A stretch of DNA of 64,000 bases from Ignavibacteriota bacterium (lineage in GTDB: Bacteria > Bacteroidota > Ignavibacteria > Tepidaquicellales > Tepidaquicellaceae): assembly GCA_026390735.1 (NCBI GenBank), contig JAPLFJ010000064.1:1-64000 (forward strand), in the 5' to 3' direction. This document shows, in pieces, positions 4,717-20,914 of this stretch (position 1 is its first letter; each line of letters starts with the position of its first letter). Under the pieces are notes generated by a model that was given only the letters and a program-made list of their open reading frames with translations, was not told the origin of the DNA and ran no database searches. Made by a program: the position numbers and the translations under genes.

Positions 4717-5427
4717 ATGAAAATGAAAACAACAAAACAATTAATACTAATTCTTGTTCTATCTGTGATGCTTGCCTCCTGCGGACAGAAGAAGGTAGAA
4801 ACAGACACCTCTCATTCAAACGACACAAAGGGTAAAAAGCACGAACACGCAGTAATCAATTCTCCCGATGACGCACTGAATGAACTTAAAAAGGGAAACA
4901 CCAGGTTCGTTGACGGTAAATCCGAGACCAGGGATTACAAAGAGCAGGTACAAAGCGTTAAAGACGACCAGCATCCTCATTCGGTAATCTTATCGTGTCT
5001 CGATTCGCGTGTTCCGCCTGAAATAGTATTCGACCAGGGATTCGGAGACATATTCGTTGCACGTGTTGCAGGTAACATAGAAGACGATAACATTCTCGGC
5101 AGTATGGAGTTTGCAACAAAATTGAAAGGCAGTAAATTAATAGTTGTAATGGGTCACAATAAATGCGGTGCAGTAAAAGGTGCCGTTGACAATGCAGAAC
5201 TCGGAAACCTTACGCAACTTGTTGACCAGATTAAACCTGCAATCACAGGTGATAAATCAAACCCTGATAAAATGCTCGACGAAACATCTAAGAAGAATGT
5301 TAAACTTCAGATTGAAAGTATTTTAAAACATAGTGAAGTTATTGCTGCTTTAGTAAAAGAAGGCAAGGTAAAGATTGTCGGCGCATATTACGATTTAAAC
5401 ACAGGCAAAGTCGAGTTCATGAATTAA
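4717..5427 (+). CDS. Beta-class carbonic anhydrase, predicted lipoprotein
   Basis: It interconverts CO2 and bicarbonate. The beta-class zinc ligands are present: C94 and D96 in SCLDSRVPPE, H147 and C150 in MGHNKCGAVKGA; D96-R98 is the conserved dyad. Unlike the usual cytoplasmic enzymes, it begins with a lipoprotein signal (ILVLSVMLASC, lipid Cys at 22) and then a charged His-rich linker, so it should sit in the periplasm on a membrane. The 236-residue length is the family core plus this leader. ATG codons at 4717 and 4723 are both possible. It is transcribed divergently from the GH81 gene and has its own terminator, so it is probably a single-gene unit. Confidence 0.92.
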   Translation: MKMKTTKQLILILVLSVMLASCGQKKVETDTSHSNDTKGKKHEHAVINSPDDALNELKKGNTRFVDGKSETRDYKEQVQSVKDDQHPHSVILSCLDSRVPPEIVFDQGFGDIFVARVAGNIEDDNILGSMEFATKLKGSKLIVVMGHNKCGAVKGAVDNAELGNLTQLVDQIKPAITGDKSNPDKMLDETSKKNVKLQIESILKHSEVIAALVKEGKVKIVGAYYDLNTGKVEFMN

Positions 5428-9853: not shown

Positions 9854-12800
9854 ATGAAGAATTTTATTACTAATAGCGGGCAGGATAATCTTAAGAACAG
9901 GCTTATCGAACTAATAAGAAATTCAGACGAACTGAAGTTTCTTGTCGGCTTTTTCTACTTCTCTGGTGTTCGGGAATTCTATGAAACGCTGAAAGAAACC
10001 CCAGGTTGTACTCTTAAAATTCTCGTCGGTCTCAATGTTGATAAAATTAATTATAAGATTGTTGAGGTCGCTAATGAAGAAACGCATATCTCAGATAAGG
10101 AACGTTCTTTCCTTTTTATAAAATCTGTAAAGAATACTTTAAACTCAGATGATTTCGATAATGAAGAATTTCATAATCAGGTAAAGTTCTTTGTGGAAAT
10201 GATAAAGAGCAATAAACTCATTCTTCGAAAAACAGATAAACCCAATCATTCAAAACTCTATATATTTAAACTCCAGCAGCTTCAGATTGCACGTGATAAA
10301 CTCTTCATCACAGGTAGCAGCAACCTTACAAAAGCCGGTCTTTCAACACAGGAAGAGTTTAACGTTGAAATAAGTGACTATGGCGTTGATTCAGCAGAAG
10401 AATATTTTGATTCTCTCTGGGAATCCGCTGTACCAATCACGGAAGATGACACTGTCCGAAAAAAACTTGTTGATGTTGTTGAAAAAGAAACTCACATCAA
10501 AGATGTTACACCTTTTGAGGCATTTCTTTTAATCTTAAAAACGTATCTCGATTCTTACAATCAGAAGAATATCAGCGAGACATTGCGCGAACTTCTTCTT
10601 GCTAATGATTATAAACCTTATGAATATCAGATAGACGCAGTCAAGCAGGCGCTTTCAATCATCGAACAGAACAACGGTGTTATTATTGCCGATGTAGTAG
10701 GTCTTGGCAAAACCATTATAGCCTGTGCAATAGGACGCGAACTCCGAAAACGCGGCATCGTTATCTGCCCTCCGGGTCTTGTTGGTGACAAGAGTAGATC
10801 TACTGGCTGGAGAAAATATACCGAACAGTTTCAACTTCACAACTGGGAAGTATTTTCTCTCGGTAATTTTGATACTATAAGCGATTACCTGAAAAACGCA
10901 AAAGATGTTGAAGTTGTAATCATTGATGAAGCCCATCGTTTCAGGAATCAGGATACTGAAGATTATGAAGCGCTGCGCAATATATGCAGGAATAAAAATG
11001 TAATACTGTTAACAGCAACACCGTTTAATAATAAGCCAAATGACATTCTATCTTTATTAAAACTATTTATTCTTCCAAAAAAGTCAAACATTACTCTTGA
11101 GAACGACATCGTTGCGATGTTTCGTCATTTCAAAGGTGTGTTCGACAGACTGGCCGACATCAGCAAATACCATAATTCAAATAACGAGAAGAAAAGGAAA
11201 AGAGCTCAGACATATTACAAATCATTGTTCGGAAACGATAACATTGATTTGAAGAATGTTAGAGAACGTGCAAAGTTTCTTTCAAAACAAATCCGGGATA
11301 TTATCGAGCCGGTTACTATCAGAAGAAATCGTATTGATTTGCAAACTAATCCATACTACAAGGAAGAAGTAAAGGACTTATCCAAAATAGCAGACCCGCA
11401 GGAATGGTTCTATGAATTGTCCAATGAGCAGTCTGATTTTTACGATAAAATCATTAAGTTATATTTTGGCGACCCTGAAGAAGGAGGTATGTTTACCGGT
11501 GCAATCTATCAGCCCTTCGTTTACGAGCAGGCAATTCTTGACGATGACGGCAAGAAACTCGACGCAAAGCAGAACTTTGAACTCTTGCAGCAACGTAACT
11601 TGTATAACTTTATGCGTCGTATGCTCGTGAAAAGGTTCGAAAGTTCATTCGGCTCATTCGAGCAAAGCATTAAGAACTTTCTCCTCATTACAGAAACCGT
11701 ACAGGAATTTATTAGCAAAACAGGAAAGTATATACTCGATAGAAAACTTATAAATGAAATTTATGAATACGACCCTGATGATATCGAAGAAGAACTTATT
11801 AAATATGCTGAGTTTTTAAAAGAAGGTGTTTATCCTAAAAGCCATAAGATATACGAAGTAAAGGATTTTGAAAATAAAGAAAAATTCGCTGAAGATATTC
11901 AGTCAGATATTAATCTTTACAATACTGTACTTGAAGAACTCAAAAGACTTAAACTCGTTGAAAAAGACCCTAAGAGCAAATGTGTTATCAAAAAGCTAAA
12001 GGAACAAATGGCAATCATCCCTGAAGCCGGTGAGCCAAAGAGGAAGTATGTAATCTTCTCTGAATACGTCGATACAATAAAACACCTCACACCTATCTTT
12101 GAAAAGGAATTTAAAGATAAATGTTTAATCGTCCCTGGAAAACTTTCTATTGCTAAAATAAATGAGATTAACTATAACTTCGATGCTTCCTCAAAAAAGC
12201 AGGAAGATGATTATGATATACTTTTAACCTCAGACGTTATTTCCGAAGGTTACAACCTCAATCGTGCAGGAATGGTTATCAACTATGATATCCCATGGAA
12301 TCCTGTTCGTGTTATTCAGCGTGTCGGGCGTATAAACCGTATCAGCAAAAAGGTATTCGAAAAACTATACATTGTCAATTTCTTCCCGACTGAGCAGGGC
12401 TCTGATTTGGTCAAAAGCCGTGAGATTGCACAGAATAAGATGTTCCTTATACACAATACTCTTGGCGAGGATTCTAAAATATTCGATGCAGACGAAGAAC
12501 CAACGGCAGCAAACCTGTATAAAAGAGTTCAGCAGAACCCAGACGACCTCGAGTCAGAAAGTTTCTACACCAAAATATTAAAGGAGTTTCTTGAATACAA
12601 AGAGAAGTATCCGGAAATAGTAAACAGTCTCAGCGATTTTCCTTCCCGAATCAAATCTGCAAAGGAATTCACAGAGGACGAAATCCTCGTGTTCTTTAAA
12701 AAAGGCAGAATGTATATTAACGGTAAAAAGATTATTGAGAATTCTAAAAGTGATATCGTTTATTACACAATCGAAGATGTGTATGATAAGATAAAATGTG

Positions 12801-13213
12801 GTGTTGATGAAAAATCTCTTCCGTTAAGTTCTGAGTTCTGGGTTAACTATCACGACGTAAAAAATTACACAAAAGAGGTTTCTTCTGCCTCTCCAGAGCA
12901 AAGCCTTGAAACAAAAGCGCTGATTGCTTTGAAGACCTTGATTAAAAATCCTTTTGATGATATTATGCCGTATATGGATTTCATCAGAACTCTGTCCCGC
13001 GATATAGTCGATTATGGTACTCTGTCTGATTATACTCACCGCAGAATATCAAACATAAAATTCGGAACAGATGCTGATAAAACTAAGACCGTAAAAGTTA
13101 TTAGAGAGCTAATATTTGAACTTGGCGAAAATTATCTCGATAAAGAAATAGAAAATCAGAAACAGTTAAACAAAGAAGTTATTATAGCATTAGAAAATCA
13201 GAAAGTGCAATAA
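9854..13213 (+). CDS. PLD-nuclease/SNF2-type helicase, putative restriction component
   Basis: This 1119-residue protein joins an N-terminal phospholipase-D-like nuclease (about 1-195) to an SF2/SNF2-family ATPase (about 250-870). The nuclease motif is NHSKLYIFK (H132, K134) with FITGSSNLTKAGL (N157) and EEFNVEI. ATPase motifs: YEYQIDAV, DVVGLGKTI (280-288), IIDEAHRF (Asp-Glu-Ala-His 358-361), LLTATPFNN (386-393), then in the second RecA domain KYVIFSEYVDT, LLTSDVISEGYNL and NPVRVIQRVGRINRI near 820. It probably moves along DNA and cuts it, with the methyltransferase gene downstream marking self DNA. The nearest known relatives I can name are the helicases of DISARM-like and composite R-M loci. 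A 104-base gap with operator-like palindromes separates it from the next gene. Confidence 0.88.
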   Translation: MKNFITNSGQDNLKNRLIELIRNSDELKFLVGFFYFSGVREFYETLKETPGCTLKILVGLNVDKINYKIVEVANEETHISDKERSFLFIKSVKNTLNSDDFDNEEFHNQVKFFVEMIKSNKLILRKTDKPNHSKLYIFKLQQLQIARDKLFITGSSNLTKAGLSTQEEFNVEISDYGVDSAEEYFDSLWESAVPITEDDTVRKKLVDVVEKETHIKDVTPFEAFLLILKTYLDSYNQKNISETLRELLLANDYKPYEYQIDAVKQALSIIEQNNGVIIADVVGLGKTIIACAIGRELRKRGIVICPPGLVGDKSRSTGWRKYTEQFQLHNWEVFSLGNFDTISDYLKNAKDVEVVIIDEAHRFRNQDTEDYEALRNICRNKNVILLTATPFNNKPNDILSLLKLFILPKKSNITLENDIVAMFRHFKGVFDRLADISKYHNSNNEKKRKRAQTYYKSLFGNDNIDLKNVRERAKFLSKQIRDIIEPVTIRRNRIDLQTNPYYKEEVKDLSKIADPQEWFYELSNEQSDFYDKIIKLYFGDPEEGGMFTGAIYQPFVYEQAILDDDGKKLDAKQNFELLQQRNLYNFMRRMLVKRFESSFGSFEQSIKNFLLITETVQEFISKTGKYILDRKLINEIYEYDPDDIEEELIKYAEFLKEGVYPKSHKIYEVKDFENKEKFAEDIQSDINLYNTVLEELKRLKLVEKDPKSKCVIKKLKEQMAIIPEAGEPKRKYVIFSEYVDTIKHLTPIFEKEFKDKCLIVPGKLSIAKINEINYNFDASSKKQEDDYDILLTSDVISEGYNLNRAGMVINYDIPWNPVRVIQRVGRINRISKKVFEKLYIVNFFPTEQGSDLVKSREIAQNKMFLIHNTLGEDSKIFDADEEPTAANLYKRVQQNPDDLESESFYTKILKEFLEYKEKYPEIVNSLSDFPSRIKSAKEFTEDEILVFFKKGRMYINGKKIIENSKSDIVYYTIEDVYDKIKCGVDEKSLPLSSEFWVNYHDVKNYTKEVSSASPEQSLETKALIALKTLIKNPFDDIMPYMDFIRTLSRDIVDYGTLSDYTHRRISNIKFGTDADKTKTVKVIRELIFELGENYLDKEIENQKQLNKEVIIALENQKVQ

Positions 13214-13237
13214 TATGCATATTCCGTCATTATGCTC

Positions 13238-13294
13238 TTTAGTCTGTAATATATTACATACATTTATTATATTTAGTCTGTAATTCATTACATA
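13238..13294. promoter_or_regulatory. Two direct repeats, each holding a TGTAAT-N2-ATTACA palindrome
   Basis: A 23-base sequence beginning TTTAGTCTGTAAT occurs at 13238-13260 and 13272-13294 (34-base offset, two differences). Each holds a perfect inverted repeat, TGTAAT-N2-ATTACA (13245-13258 and 13279-13292). They fill the gap just before the AAA ATPase gene and look like paired operators for a dimeric repressor. Confidence 0.55.
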
Positions 13295-13317
13295 TAGGTT
13301 TTAATAATCATTTTAAT

Positions 13318-14763
13318 ATGCCAAATATCAGTACTTTAAGGGAGTTGGTTTTAAACTGGAATTCAAGGCTTCCATACATTTACGACAATTATTTATATTC
13401 TTCGGGTGGAAATCTGCTTCCCAGAAGGAAACTTTTCAATAAACTTGAATCTATTATAAATAATTTTCTGAATGACACCTTAAACGAACTTGAGAAGATT
13501 TTTTTGATTACCGGAATAAAGGGAACGGGTAAGACAACGCTCCTGCTTCAGGCATTAAACTTTAATAAATACGATAAATCACTGGCAGACAACCAAATCT
13601 ACGACAAGGTTTATGTAGATGTCGGTAAATTAAAGAACGAAGGATTTACTCTTAACGATTTTCTGAAATTCTACGAAACCGAACACAATCTTATTTATGA
13701 AAACAATCAGAAGAAGATAATCTTTGTTTTTGATGAGGTTCATTACGACGATAACTGGGGTCTTACGCTGAAAAACTTTTTTGATGCGACTAAGGGAAAC
13801 AAAAACGTTTTAGTTCTTGCAACAGGTTCATCTGCCATAAAACTTCGATTAAACACAGACCTTGCAAGACGCTCTACACTTATCGAATTGTTTCCACTGC
13901 AATTTACGGAATACCTTGAAATGAAGTATAACATCAGTATAGATGAAAACTTATCAACAGGTATAGCAGATTCAATAATCAATTCCCCAAATGCAGTTAG
14001 TCTTTATGATTATCTTGTTTCGGCAAAGACATCCATTAACGAAGCCATTCGTCTCTTCCCCGCAAACAGCGTAAATGAGTTTTTTCTGTTCGGCGGTTTT
14101 CCGTTTAACCTCGAATCATCACAACTGGCATTTGAGAAAATCAAGAATGTAATCGATAACATTATTTTAAAGGATATAGTAAACGTTAAAGAATATAAAA
14201 TAAATGTTGTTTCGCAGATAAACCTGCTTGTTTATCTGCTCGCAAATTCAGACACTATCAGCATCGAAAAGATAAAGAAATCGATTAAGATTACAGACAA
14301 CAGAACTATATACGGAATTCTGGACAGCATTGCCGATGCGGGTCTTATCACAAAAGTAAAGGCATTCGGCGGGGCGTATACCTCGCCAAGAAAAACTCCT
14401 AAATTTCTCTTTAATTCACCCAGCATACGAGCAGGAATTCTCGACGGATTTTACAATTCCGGCACCGAAGGGAAAAAACTTGAAGATTATTTCTCGCTCT
14501 TATTCAATAATGTATTTATCAAGAACGGTGCAAGAGAATTAAATTATGATGCAGCAGAGGGAGGAGCGGATTTCATAATCCGAAAGAATAACGGAGATGC
14601 TGTAATTGTAGAGACCGGCTATAACAAAAATAAAACAAATCAGATACTTAAAACAAACAAGAAAGTAAATGCATCCTTTGGTGTGCTTATCGGCAGCGAT
14701 GATCTAACTCTGGAAGATGATTTTGCAGTAAAGATACCCGTTAACTATCTGATGTTGATTTAA
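13318..14763 (+). CDS. AAA ATPase, AAA_14/DUF4143 family
   Basis: A 481-residue ATPase of the family annotated as AAA_14 plus DUF4143. Walker A is ITGIKGTGKTTL near 65-76; Walker B is IIFVFDEVHYDDNW near 134-147; sensor-like VLVLATGSSAIKL and LIELFPLQFTEYL follow. The winged-helix/DUF4143 part contains RTIYGILDSIADAGLI. The C-terminal segment GGADFIIRKNNGDAVIVETGYNK looks like the restriction-like fold often found here, but the catalytic Lys of the E-x-K motif is replaced (E-T-G), so it may be inactive. Such ATPases are common, of unclear role, and often found in mobile or defence regions. It sits inside the helicase-methyltransferase pair, 18 bases before the methyltransferase. Confidence 0.85.
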   Translation: MPNISTLRELVLNWNSRLPYIYDNYLYSSGGNLLPRRKLFNKLESIINNFLNDTLNELEKIFLITGIKGTGKTTLLLQALNFNKYDKSLADNQIYDKVYVDVGKLKNEGFTLNDFLKFYETEHNLIYENNQKKIIFVFDEVHYDDNWGLTLKNFFDATKGNKNVLVLATGSSAIKLRLNTDLARRSTLIELFPLQFTEYLEMKYNISIDENLSTGIADSIINSPNAVSLYDYLVSAKTSINEAIRLFPANSVNEFFLFGGFPFNLESSQLAFEKIKNVIDNIILKDIVNVKEYKINVVSQINLLVYLLANSDTISIEKIKKSIKITDNRTIYGILDSIADAGLITKVKAFGGAYTSPRKTPKFLFNSPSIRAGILDGFYNSGTEGKKLEDYFSLLFNNVFIKNGARELNYDAAEGGADFIIRKNNGDAVIVETGYNKNKTNQILKTNKKVNASFGVLIGSDDLTLEDDFAVKIPVNYLMLI

Positions 14764-14781
14764 ATAAAACAGAATTATTAT

Positions 14782-17700
14782 ATGAGCAAAGAAAAACTTC
14801 AGGGAATAATAAATGATTTTAACCCCGATAAATTCGGTGAATTCTTCCGTGAAAAGAACCGCAACTTTTCCAGAACTACCGAAAAACTGTCACAGTATAA
14901 CGACGATAGATTTACTGCCTGCACTAAAATCGGCGAGATAAAATTTGAGGATGATAATATTATCTTTGTTCACACTAAAACAAAAAATGATCTTACTGAA
15001 AGAAGCAGTAAGAAACTCCAGTATGAAATCGCAAGAAAAATTCTTAAAACCGAAAGGTTTGATGCAGGTATATTTATCTTCTACGATTCGAATGGTAATT
15101 TCCGTTTCAGTCTTGTTTATGCAAATTATCTTGGTAATAAAAGGGATTGGAACAATTTTCGTAGATTCACTTATTACGTTAATAAAGAACTAACCAACAA
15201 AACCTTCCTGAAGCAGATCGGCGATGGTGATTTTAGCTCCCTAACCAAAATCAAAGAAATATTTTCGATTACAGCAGTTACTAATATTTTCTACGATGAA
15301 TTTTTAAAGATATATGAAAACATTGTTGCTAAAGTTGTTGAATGTAATGATGACATTGAAATTGGAAAAGCCCGTGATTTTGTATTATTGTTTGCTATTA
15401 GGATAATCTTTATTGGCTTTATTCAGAAAAAACGCTGGATAGGTAATGACGATGATTTTTTGATTTCTTTCCTTAAGGAATACAAAAGGCTTAATAAAAA
15501 TGATGATTCGTTCTATGAAAGATGGCTCGAACCATTGTTCTTTGAAGCATTAAATTCTTTCGGAAAGAAAGTAGCATATAGAAAGAACGATTTTTCTAAA
15601 GAACTTGAAGATGTTCTTTTAATGGCACCTTATCTGAATGGAGGTTTGTTCAGAGTTAAACCCGGTTTCGATGATAAAGAATATTATATACCCGACAATG
15701 AAGTTGAACAATTTTTTGAGTTTCTTTTCTCGCATAGTTTCACCATTGAAGAAAACTCATTCGAGGATGAAGACCTGCAGTTGAACCCTGAATTTCTCGG
15801 TATAATTTTTGAAAGAATCGTTAATAAGGCTAATGGTGCTGTCTATACGCCACGAACCGAAGTTGATTTTATGTGCCGCCTGAGTCTTGTAAAATGGCTC
15901 GAAAAGAATACTTCTGCATCAATCCAAAAACATAATCTTTATGAACTTTTCTTTCGAGAAGCCGGCAAAGGAGATGAATTTGAAGATAGACAGAAAGACG
16001 GTAGTTTCTCTAAAGTAGAAATAGAAGAAATTCTGAATTTACTCGAAAATATAACCGTCTGTGACCCAGCCGTTGGTTCGGGGGCTTTTATAGTTGGTAT
16101 GCTTCAGGTACTTGATGAAATCATTGAAAATTTATCTAAACGGTTAAATCTTAATACGGATGATATATTCGAAAGAAAGAAGAAAATTATAAGTAATTCG
16201 CTGTATGGTGTCGAGGTAAAAGAATGGGCTGTTTGGATTTGTCAGTTAAGACTTTGGATTTCTATTTTTATTGATGCACCCGATGAATTAAAATATTCTC
16301 CCGTAGCAATTTTGCCAAGTCTTGAATTTAAAATTCGTCAGGGCGATTCTCTTGTTCAGAGAATTGGAAATAAAATGTTTCCTGTCCTGGGTCATGCCGA
16401 TGTTAAAGGCAGAGTAAAATCTAAAATAACAGAGTTAAAGAAGATAAAATCTGATTACTTTTATAACAAAGGAAAATTATCTGAATTTATTATCAAGGAA
16501 AAAGAAATATCAGTTTATCAGTCAATCATTGATGAGGAAATTGAAGAGCTTAAAGAATCTGTCAGACGTAAAAGCAGTATTGAAAAAGTAACTAAAACTG
16601 GATTATTTAGTGACCCAAAAGATGTTAGCAGCCAGGAAGTTCTAACGTACGACGAGAATGAGGTTCAGGATATAAAATACAGAATAAATGAGTTGGTAGA
16701 ACAGAAAAGCAATATAAGAATAGATAAACCATTAATCTGGAATATTGAGTTTGCCGAAATATTTGTTGAAAAAGATGGCTTTGATTTAGTGATTGGTAAT
16801 CCGCCATACGTTAGATCTGAGAAAATTGATGATCCAACATTTAAAACTAAAAATAAAAAAGAGTATAAAGATTTACTTGGTTTAATGATTAGATTAGATT
16901 TCCCATATCATTTTAAATCAAGAGCAAAGTTTGATTACAAATCTGATTTATATATTTATTTCTATATTAGATCTTTGAGGTTGTTAAATAAAAACGGTTA
17001 TTTGAATTTTATATGCTCAAACTCATGGCTTGACGTAGGCTACGGTTCTTGTTTACAGGACTTTCTTCTTGATTATTGTCAAATAGATTTTATAATTGAT
17101 AATCACTCTAAAAGGAGTTTCGAGTCGGCAGATATAAATACTATAATCAGTTTAATTAATGCTCCTCAAAAGAAATCAAATAAATCTCATCTTGTAAAAT
17201 TTGTAGCATTTAAGAAGCCATTTGAAGAAATAGTTTTTACAGAAAATATGATTCAGATTGATTCAACAAAGGAAATTGTTTCAAATAATTCGTTTAGAGT
17301 TTATCCTATAAGTAATAATGATTTAAAATTATCAGGTACTGAATTTATCAATGACGAACTAGAACAATTGAATATTGGAGAATATGTAGGTGATAAATGG
17401 GGAGCAAAATATCTCAGAGCACCAGAAGTGTATTTTAAAGTAATTAATAAAAACTTTAATAAATTAGTAAAGCTCAAAGAATTAATGAACATACTTCCTG
17501 GTTGTTATTCGGGTTTGAACGATTTCTTTTATATTGACAAAGGCATTATTGATAAATTTGATATTGAGGATGATTATGTCGTGCCAATAATTAGAAGTTC
17601 GAAAGACGTTAATTCTTTTGAAATTAATATTTCCAACGATAATTACGTACTTTCAATACCAAGTGATGATAAAAGTAATTTGAAAAGAGGAGTGAGAAAG

Positions 17701-18351
17701 TATATTGAATGGGGGGAAAAACAAAAGACAAGAGAAAGACAAAAAACAAAGGCTGGTATACCATGGCCTAAGACCGAAACAGTAAAAGCTAGAAAGTATT
17801 GGTATTCAATTCCGAAACAAAATCTGTTAAAAACTAATTTGTTTATGCAATATGTAGCTAATGATAGGTTCTATTGTTGTTTTTCTCAAACAGAACTAAC
17901 GAGCGATCGTTGTTTTCATAGATTGTTTCAATCAAATAATGATAATTTGTATAAACAAATATTGATATTGAATTCAACAATACAAATGTTTTTTGTGATG
18001 TTATTTGGTAGAGCATCGCTTGGATTAGGAGCAATGAAATTTGAAACTAAAGATGCTAAAAATCTTATCTCAATTGATACAGAAAAACTAAATATTTCCG
18101 AGAAAAATGCTTTGGGAATAGTTGATAAATTAAGTAAAAGAATTCCGTTCTCAGTATTTGTTGAATGTGGAATAAATCCTGATTTAGATATTCCAATTGA
18201 AGAGCAAGAACCAAACCCTTTACCTGACAGAGCAGAACTTGATAAAATTGTTTTTGATGCTCTTGAACTTACGGTTGATGAACGCAAAGATGTTTATCGT
18301 GCCGTATGCCGTCTTGTATGGAACAGAATAAGTAAAGCAAAAAGTGTATAA
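14782..18351 (+). CDS. Eco57I-type adenine-N6 DNA methyltransferase with target-recognition region
   Basis: A 1189-residue protein that should methylate adenine in a specific DNA site. Motif I is CDPAVGSGAF (about 428-437) and the catalytic motif IV is VIGNPPYVRS (NPPY about 673-676). The N-terminal part has the block typical of large Eco57I/type IIG-like proteins (ERSSKKLQYEIARKIL, GNFRFSLVYANYL, RFTYYVNKELTNKTFL), but I see no convincing PD-(D/E)xK nuclease, which fits cutting being done by the PLD-helicase. Residues 760-1130 look like a target-recognition region and are more AT-rich than the rest, as expected of a fast-changing, exchanged segment. The start lies 18 bases after the ATPase gene. 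Confidence 0.9.
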   Translation: MSKEKLQGIINDFNPDKFGEFFREKNRNFSRTTEKLSQYNDDRFTACTKIGEIKFEDDNIIFVHTKTKNDLTERSSKKLQYEIARKILKTERFDAGIFIFYDSNGNFRFSLVYANYLGNKRDWNNFRRFTYYVNKELTNKTFLKQIGDGDFSSLTKIKEIFSITAVTNIFYDEFLKIYENIVAKVVECNDDIEIGKARDFVLLFAIRIIFIGFIQKKRWIGNDDDFLISFLKEYKRLNKNDDSFYERWLEPLFFEALNSFGKKVAYRKNDFSKELEDVLLMAPYLNGGLFRVKPGFDDKEYYIPDNEVEQFFEFLFSHSFTIEENSFEDEDLQLNPEFLGIIFERIVNKANGAVYTPRTEVDFMCRLSLVKWLEKNTSASIQKHNLYELFFREAGKGDEFEDRQKDGSFSKVEIEEILNLLENITVCDPAVGSGAFIVGMLQVLDEIIENLSKRLNLNTDDIFERKKKIISNSLYGVEVKEWAVWICQLRLWISIFIDAPDELKYSPVAILPSLEFKIRQGDSLVQRIGNKMFPVLGHADVKGRVKSKITELKKIKSDYFYNKGKLSEFIIKEKEISVYQSIIDEEIEELKESVRRKSSIEKVTKTGLFSDPKDVSSQEVLTYDENEVQDIKYRINELVEQKSNIRIDKPLIWNIEFAEIFVEKDGFDLVIGNPPYVRSEKIDDPTFKTKNKKEYKDLLGLMIRLDFPYHFKSRAKFDYKSDLYIYFYIRSLRLLNKNGYLNFICSNSWLDVGYGSCLQDFLLDYCQIDFIIDNHSKRSFESADINTIISLINAPQKKSNKSHLVKFVAFKKPFEEIVFTENMIQIDSTKEIVSNNSFRVYPISNNDLKLSGTEFINDELEQLNIGEYVGDKWGAKYLRAPEVYFKVINKNFNKLVKLKELMNILPGCYSGLNDFFYIDKGIIDKFDIEDDYVVPIIRSSKDVNSFEINISNDNYVLSIPSDDKSNLKRGVRKYIEWGEKQKTRERQKTKAGIPWPKTETVKARKYWYSIPKQNLLKTNLFMQYVANDRFYCCFSQTELTSDRCFHRLFQSNNDNLYKQILILNSTIQMFFVMLFGRASLGLGAMKFETKDAKNLISIDTEKLNISEKNALGIVDKLSKRIPFSVFVECGINPDLDIPIEEQEPNPLPDRAELDKIVFDALELTVDERKDVYRAVCRLVWNRISKAKSV

Positions 18352-18369
18352 TAATAAAACTTAAATATT

Positions 18370-19569
18370 ATGGCTAATAAAACATATTACAAATTAGTTT
18401 TTGAAATAGATGAAATAGAAAAAAATCTCGGTACAATGGTGACTGATGAGGAGAAGATAAAATATCTTTTAGATTTGCGTAATCACTACATTTTCTTTTG
18501 CTATAATTTGAATGACAGAGCTATTAGGCTTGAGATACACCCAAGTGTGATTAGGAAGTACGAGTTTATTCCTTATTCTGTAACTTCGGACTTTGAGCAG
18601 ACACACATTTCGAGGTCGGGGTTTGTGTTATTGCTTCGTCACATTGACAGAGAATTAATACCCTTTGTCAGGGCAGAACTCTTTAAATTAGATAAGGACA
18701 TAAAGGAAGATTTGCGAATAATGACAAAGGATTATAATCTGTTTAATTTTGATTTGAATAAAGTATTAGACCACAGCAATGACTTAAAAGAGGATAAAAT
18801 ATTGTACCTGGAAGGAGTGATTAAAGATTATGAACAAAATTTGAAAGAAGAATGCGATAAGGATTTCGGTTTAAACTATTATCATGAATTATCGAATAGT
18901 GAATTTGTAAAAGGTGTTAAAGACAGAATTATTGCCTGGAAAAAATATCCGGATATATTATTTCCAAAATTAGTGAAAGAGGAAGCGAAGGCAGAAAACC
19001 CAGAGGTTTTCAAACTGGATCCAATCTTATATGAATTTAAGTTTTATAGAATAAAAGAATATACAAAGGGGTTAAACAATCCAGTAGAACAGATTAAGTA
19101 CCTTGAGTTTGTTAAGAAAGAAGCAAAACAGAATACTAAATATTTTGAAGAGGATGAATATATAATATTTATTAGATCGCTTAATTCGGAAATAGAATTT
19201 TATACAAAAATTTTAAATATATCAAACATAAACACTGATAATGCTGTTTCTTCTTCAAATAAGGAAATCATTAAGCTTCACTGGCAGGATGATAATTCTC
19301 TGGTCCCTTATCTTTTAGATCTTCTTCATAAAGAAGGACTTATTTCGAATGGTGATTATGAAAACAGAAAGCAGTTTATTGAACAGACTATCCTTAAAAA
19401 TAATGGTGAAGTATTTACCGCAAAGGAGGTCGCATCTTATGAATATTCATTTGAGAATATAAACACAAAAGGTGCTCCCAGAAAACGTGCCAAAGTTGAG
19501 AGAATTTCCGGTGAGTTAAAGGTAAAGAGTCTTGACATAAAGGCAGAAAAGAGGAAGCCGAAGGAGTAA
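18370..19569 (+). CDS. Unknown accessory protein with RteC-like C-terminal segment
   Basis: A 399-residue, highly charged, Lys/Glu-rich helical protein with no signal peptide or membrane segment. I do not recognise the main part. The C-terminal segment IIKLHWQDDNSLVPYLLDLL followed by KEGLI and a helical stretch to about residue 370 recalls a short C-terminal module found in Bacteroidota RteC and many proteins of mobile elements; this likeness is by eye only. The gene starts 18 bases after the methyltransferase stop, the same spacing as the pair before it, so it is probably the last gene of the putative defence operon and may regulate or specify it. It ends in a basic tail (KAEKRKPKE). Confidence 0.6.
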   Translation: MANKTYYKLVFEIDEIEKNLGTMVTDEEKIKYLLDLRNHYIFFCYNLNDRAIRLEIHPSVIRKYEFIPYSVTSDFEQTHISRSGFVLLLRHIDRELIPFVRAELFKLDKDIKEDLRIMTKDYNLFNFDLNKVLDHSNDLKEDKILYLEGVIKDYEQNLKEECDKDFGLNYYHELSNSEFVKGVKDRIIAWKKYPDILFPKLVKEEAKAENPEVFKLDPILYEFKFYRIKEYTKGLNNPVEQIKYLEFVKKEAKQNTKYFEEDEYIIFIRSLNSEIEFYTKILNISNINTDNAVSSSNKEIIKLHWQDDNSLVPYLLDLLHKEGLISNGDYENRKQFIEQTILKNNGEVFTAKEVASYEYSFENINTKGAPRKRAKVERISGELKVKSLDIKAEKRKPKE

Positions 19570-20215: not shown

Positions 20216-20914
20216 ATGGCAAAAGTAAGAGATCAGCACTTAGGTGCTATTCAGGGTCAAGTAGGACCACAGGTATTTAAAATATTAAACGGCGATTCAT
20301 ACGTTGCACAGCTTCCTCACAGGAGCAATGTGGAGCCATCGGATGCTGTTAAGGAACGAAGAAAACAATTCGGACTGACGATGAAATTTGCAAAGGCAAT
20401 ATATATGCTGTTAATGTTAAGGCTTTTCTGGAAGTCGTTTATTCCAGATGGCGCAAAGAAGGCAATGACGACAATGTCGAAGATAGCGAAGGCGAGTTAT
20501 CCATGCGTTTCTGCTACTGAGATAACAGATATAGCGTTGTTAGCGCCGGACTTTGGTTTTGCGGTAACGACAACAACTAAGACACTTGCAAATGATGAAT
20601 TCACAGTGGTGACTGCGGCTCTTGGAGACACAGGCATTATTGACACAACGAAAGAGACAACTGTGTATCTTTTATGTGTAGCACATTTGTCAGAACCAAC
20701 GAGCAATACATATTCAGCAAACCGCTTTTTCAGTCTTAAGTCAGCGGGACAGATTCTATCGACATCAACGGCGTTAACGTTTACGATACCGCTTGACAGT
20801 GCGATGGGTCAGGTTTACGATGCTTATGCAACTAAGAAGGCGTTCTTTGTACTTGTGACTACGGACAGCAATGGGGCACCAGTACATTTTTCAAGTACGT
20901 TTCATACATCATAA
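20216..20914 (+). CDS. DUF6266-like protein, paralogue 1
   Basis: A 232-residue protein resembling the DUF6266 family of Bacteroidota, whose function is unknown. The N-terminal region has the family pattern: GAIQGQVG, then K-x2-NGDSYVAQLP, then a conserved R-x-QF, followed by a helical KFAKAIYMLLMLRLFWKSFIP. The C-terminal half is Thr-rich and beta-like. No signal peptide is seen. It shares this N-terminal pattern with the next gene (see 21081-21794), so the pair arose by duplication. The start has AAGGAAAATCAGTT before ATG, an acceptable ribosome site. It ends with its own terminator. Confidence 0.65.
   Translation: MAKVRDQHLGAIQGQVGPQVFKILNGDSYVAQLPHRSNVEPSDAVKERRKQFGLTMKFAKAIYMLLMLRLFWKSFIPDGAKKAMTTMSKIAKASYPCVSATEITDIALLAPDFGFAVTTTTKTLANDEFTVVTAALGDTGIIDTTKETTVYLLCVAHLSEPTSNTYSANRFFSLKSAGQILSTSTALTFTIPLDSAMGQVYDAYATKKAFFVLVTTDSNGAPVHFSSTFHTS

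Follow-up and report, generated by a model that had tools for sequence, protein, structure and literature searches.

SauUSI carries a PLD nuclease followed by an SF2 motor in a single chain, and the enzyme translocates and cuts DNA (PMC7913695). The CglI/NgoAVII systems comprise a PLD nuclease, an SF2 ATPase and a methyltransferase, and fused PLD–ATPase homologues have been mentioned (PMC4267653). The Type-2 DUF499-centred BREX-related (Hma-like) systems combine an HKD + Swi2/Snf2 helicase with an N6-MTase, and the DUF499 ATPase is needed (PMC12839542). Here, we analysed a four-gene locus within a 64,000-nt stretch of DNA (hereafter, the window). An earlier note had interpreted all four genes as one composite defence system. 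Our comparisons suggest that genes 1 and 3 are the core, a DNA-cutting phage-defence pair that appears to be widespread, and that genes 2 and 4 are local additions.

Organization of the locus and the two core proteins

The four ORFs lie on the same strand and are separated by 104, 18 and 18 nt in turn, and the identity of the last two gaps noted earlier was confirmed (Table 1). Both 18-nt gaps, between genes 2 and 3 and between genes 3 and 4, are AT-rich leaders, and we attach no particular significance to the shared length. The upstream and downstream flanks carry Mla-type transport and RND efflux genes, according to our reading of the ORFs. Elsewhere in the window, the product of 4717–5427 has, as judged by eye, the look of a beta-type carbonic anhydrase with a lipoprotein signal.

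Table 1. Positions and assignments of the features of the locus in the window
Feature	Position	Strand	Assignment	Basis
Gene 1	9854..13213	+	Core; PLD/HKD nuclease and Snf2/SF2 translocase	Pfam PLDc_2, SNF2-rel_dom, Helicase_C; motifs aligned in 32 homologues
Tandem repeats	13230..13297	.	Two 34-nt copies, each with palindrome-like AGTCTGTAATNNATTACA; operator-like	
Gene 2	13318..14763	+	Guest; AAA_14 ATPase, probably with divergent DUF4143; outside conserved core	
Gene 3	14782..18351	+	Core; Eco57I/type IIG-like N6-adenine methyltransferase with its own target-recognition region	Pfam, profile, Foldseek
Gene 3 N-terminal domain (about 175 residues)	14782..15306	+	No intact PD-(D/E)XK; predicted docking adapter	
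Gene 4	18370..19569	+	Family unassigned, mostly helical by prediction; outside conserved core	

The nuclease motif ascribed earlier to gene 1, H132-x-K134 with N157, was present and, along with E168, invariant in all 32 aligned helicase homologues. The motor motifs, namely, Walker A (about 279–290), DEAH (about 358–361) and motif VI (about 822–831), were conserved in the same alignment. As far as sequence can tell, gene 1 encodes an intact N-terminal HKD (PLD) nuclease domain joined to an intact Snf2-type motor. No SRA-type recognition domain was matched in gene 1 by Pfam, although a divergent domain is possible. The PADLOC model C3a139 (HKD+Snf2), the name of which was absent from the open-access literature searched, matched gene 1 only partially (7.9e-33), compared with a near full-length match (6.3e-130) to L134, a helicase of a second class described below.

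Gene 3 matched Eco57I in Pfam (5e-31) and contains motif I (DPAVGSGAF) and motif IV (NPPY); as in the earlier reading, no intact PD-(D/E)XK motif was found in this protein. A profile built from gene 3 relatives matched CamA and M.BseCI, and these matches extended through the recognition region. Similarly, a Foldseek search with the AlphaFold model of gene 3 (mean pLDDT 64.7; N-terminal domain mostly 66–89) matched BrxX, CamA, MmeI and BpuSI, with low whole-chain TM-scores. Sequence comparison indicates that gene 3 contains an N6-adenine methyltransferase core and a target-recognition region. The division of labour originally proposed for these two proteins is well supported: gene 1 for cutting and translocation, gene 3 for recognition and modification.

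No intact E-x-K was found in the N-terminal domain of gene 3; its position reads K-T-K in the window, and E-x-K is kept in some distant relatives. The predicted topology of this domain (AlphaFold model) is compatible with a PD-(D/E)XK core, and its sequence profile matched no convincing solved structure. Based on the motif position and the predicted topology, a PD-(D/E)XK origin appears plausible, and we infer that the domain descends from a nuclease whose catalytic residues were lost and that it turned into a docking adapter.

Pairing across genomes and the guest slot

Helicase relatives were gathered from genome contigs, 395 genomes of the phylum and plasmids, and their surroundings were then read. 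In the close clade, defined by a helicase at least 46% identical to gene 1, the methyltransferase gene was adjacent or one gene off at 10 of the 12 loci with a visible neighbourhood. In the wider set (26–38% helicase identity), it was present at all 16 loci, including two Thermales plasmids on which it lies upstream of the helicase gene and is split. Genes 1 and 3, judged from these sequences, form a conserved pair with relatives from many phyla, while close relatives of genes 2 or 4 were found at no other core-pair locus read. The helicase may also act alone, given two close-clade loci (L045 and L046) at which the PLD-helicase has no neighbouring methyltransferase gene. An AlbA_2-like gene lies upstream of the helicase gene at L045; at L046, an AAA_14/DUF4143 gene overlaps the helicase start.

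After the addition of further loci, guest genes were counted at 36 loci with the helicase and the methyltransferase genes in that order. The slot between the two was occupied at 11 of these, by seven unrelated families: AAA_14 (gene 2 of the window), AlbA_2 (L013, a truncated copy, and L064), PDDEXK_3 (L042), DUF559 (L049), NYN (L052), DUF3800 (L053) and DUF1016/YhcG (L059, L134, L135 and L146). We regard gene 2 as one of the guests of this slot, accessory to the locus. Its original label, AAA/DUF4143, held for the AAA_14 part (Pfam, 6.8e-22), and the DUF4143 part had no direct Pfam match; a divergent DUF4143 is nevertheless likely, because the closest relative within the sampled phylum (28% identity) matches both AAA_14 and DUF4143. 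Gene 2 is also weakly similar to the PADLOC phage-defence candidate PDC-S01 (2.4e-27). The 104-nt gap preceding it holds the two tandem repeats with palindrome-like cores, which look like putative operators; elsewhere in the genome, only one further near copy of the 34-nt repeat occurs, within a coding frame. No copy of the repeat, of gene 2 or of gene 4 was found in viral contigs.

The PADLOC search of each protein, suggested in the earlier note, was productive in part: genes 1–3 gave partial, domain-level matches, and gene 4 gave none. Gene 4 likewise had no match in Pfam, PHROGs or PDB sequences and no NCBIfam match above the cut-off, and its AlphaFold model (mean pLDDT 47.7) was too poor for a fold search. 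Its C-terminus may resemble that of RteC proteins, for which the Pfam scan gave no match. A relative of gene 4 was detected on another contig of the same genome (L081 on C16), followed by copies of the family of the 20216–20914 protein, in the same order as in the window; no R-M genes were seen beside this relative in the stretch read. The genome holds 22 matches to the 20216–20914 family, some of them as adjacent pairs. Gene 4 appears to be an accessory guest of the locus, outside the conserved core. The relatives of the locus have retained the upstream Mla genes, whereas the right flank is not preserved, and therefore no empty insertion site could be shown.

Mosaic structure of the methyltransferase and the competing explanations

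Pairwise identities of gene 3 segments were compared with those of the helicase over 22 loci. The correlation with helicase identity was r = 0.93 for the N-terminal segment of about 175 residues and 0.66, 0.51 and 0.31 for residues 176–400, 401–800 and 801–end, respectively; a bootstrap of the difference between 0.93 and 0.66 gave 0.09–0.52. Relatedness among loci inflates such matrix correlations. Along gene 3, the correlation was 0.91 at residues 101–200 and 0.65 at residues 201–300. Compared with L041, the window showed 60% identity in the helicase and 48% in the N-domain, but 30 and 26% in the body. In phylogenetic trees, a fully supported group (100/100) united the methyltransferase body of the window with those of L011 and the two Thermales plasmids, and a body tree forcing the window with its helicase sisters was rejected (p-AU 1.5e-6), whereas the window already groups with these sisters in the helicase tree (support 92) and, with moderate support (67/92), in the N-domain tree.

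The join was directly visible between L041 and L049, with identities of 34% in the helicase, 27% in the N-domain and 73% in the body; identity jumps from about 20% before the FS.E.VTK.FY junction motif to about 75% after it. The methyltransferases of L042 and L044 are about 95% identical over much of the core and 92% identical over the last 38 residues, but identity falls to about 30% in the recognition region, suggesting an apparent exchange of the recognition domain separately from the body. In the stand-alone type IIG relatives L142, L143 and L147, the same junction is preceded by a PD-(D/E)XK motif; in L142, the pattern missed the junction motif. No helicase was matched beside these three in the stretch read, and L142 matched a PADLOC type IIG model over its full length. 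In addition, a second class of HKD-helicase pairs with the same methyltransferase bodies behind a different N-domain. This mosaic pattern suggests that systems swap catalytic bodies and recognition domains and thereby acquire new specificities. The methyltransferase appears to be built like a plug, with a front end matched to the motor and a remainder exchanged between systems.

Taken together, genes 1 and 3 probably constitute a two-protein ATP-dependent R-M system in which the N-domain of gene 3 docks the helicase and genes 2 and 4 are accessory guests. Gene 3 would find its site and methylate host DNA (m6A); on an unmodified site, it would load or license gene 1, which would translocate and cut via a PLD dimer away from the site, by analogy with SauUSI. 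The N-domain, a docking adapter as read from the mosaic pattern, would occupy the position of the nuclease of a type IIG enzyme, so that the cut would be made in trans. Rather more tentatively, and with slightly less than even confidence, we suggest that the N-domain is an ex-nuclease plug for the nuclease-motor, and that IIG-like specificities move among stand-alone enzymes and several HKD-helicase classes. Such specificities would be movable because the same junction joins the N-domain to interchangeable bodies and recognition domains. If the adapter reading is true, it explains how ATP-dependent restriction systems gain specificities, the motor-contacting part being kept and the rest exchanged, and it gives a directly testable interface in a family that is seemingly common across phyla.

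As an alternative, a true four-component composite, with the AAA ATPase and gene 4 as essential parts, would fit the shared strand, the tight 18-nt gaps, the similarity of gene 2 to PDC-S01 and the overlapping AAA_14/DUF4143 gene at L046. However, at E 1e-5 no relationship between that L046 ATPase and gene 2 was recognized, the slot houses seven unrelated families and the gene 4 relative elsewhere in the genome lacks R-M neighbours in the stretch read, which makes this composite highly improbable. As a conserved unit, it was rejected on the lack of close relatives of genes 2 and 4 at the other core loci read. The earlier idea of a four-part system was not supported: its author had named homologous loci that never unite the four genes as the adverse outcome, and genes 2 and 4 occur at none of the other informative homologous loci, while the helicase and methyltransferase adjoin at nearly all of them. 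The near-constant pairing also bears on a type IV-like reading, in which gene 1 would be a nuclease working on its own, modification-dependent or abortive, and the methyltransferase a separate modification gene nearby. The two close loci without a methyltransferase neighbour and the precedent of SauUSI, a single-chain PLD-helicase (PMC7913695), are in line with such independence. In addition to the pairing, however, the N-domain diverges in step with the helicase and Pfam detected no SRA-type domain in gene 1, and we consider this reading improbable.

The main rival to the docking-adapter reading concerns this step only, and attributes the correlation between the N-domain and the helicase solely to the physical linkage between gene 1 and the 5′ end of gene 3. 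The N-domain is indeed the helicase-proximal part of gene 3 and would stay linked after recombination of the body, and linkage could account for some of the shared history. Nevertheless, the correlation drops sharply at one domain boundary rather than smoothly, and guests often lie between the two genes. Moreover, the junction motif recurs in stand-alone type IIG enzymes and together with an unrelated N-domain whose partner is a helicase of another class. We therefore consider linkage as the whole explanation unlikely, while giving it some weight, and favour docking of the helicase by the N-domain.

Comparison with named systems

The core pair fits no named system tested; this holds for the open-access literature searched, and a description may exist elsewhere. 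The pair resembles the Hma-like systems in its HKD + Swi2/Snf2 helicase and N6-MTase. Membership of Hma/Type-2 BR was rejected because the required DUF499 ATPase (PF04465) was not found in the genome, while a control search recovered PF04465 in Thermotoga maritima. With DISARM (DrmD, DrmMI and DrmC), the likeness extends to Snf2 helicase, adenine methyltransferase and PLD functions, as weak domain-level matches. MZB (PF09369) is expected in DrmB; it had no match in the genome, and no further helicase or DrmB-like ORF was found beside the core pair. DISARM was rejected on this lack of DrmA/DrmB and on the score of gene 1 against the DrmD model (139.7 bits, with a cut-off of 610 bits). BREX was rejected since PglZ is absent from the locus. 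The single PglZ match in the genome was a response-regulator + PglZ protein outside the locus (L157 2435–4000, contig C66), which is presumably PorX-like and which we do not regard as a BREX gene.

In CglI/NgoAVII, the PLD nuclease and the ATPase are separate, and the PLD subunit bears a B3 recognition domain, whereas here the PLD nuclease and motor are fused and recognition resides in the type IIG-like methyltransferase; Pfam detected no B3 domain at the locus, and neither a separate PLD–B3 subunit nor a separate ATPase of this kind was present. Gene 1 shares with SauUSI the combination of PLD and SF2 helicase in one chain, but SauUSI has its own modified-cytosine recognition domain, while the partner of gene 1 is an adenine methyltransferase. 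Gene 3 resembles type IIG enzymes of the BpuSI and MmeI kind in its Eco57I/MmeI-like methyltransferase body and junction motif. It differs from L142, L143 and L147 in having no intact N-terminal PD-(D/E)XK, and cutting is predicted to take place in trans.
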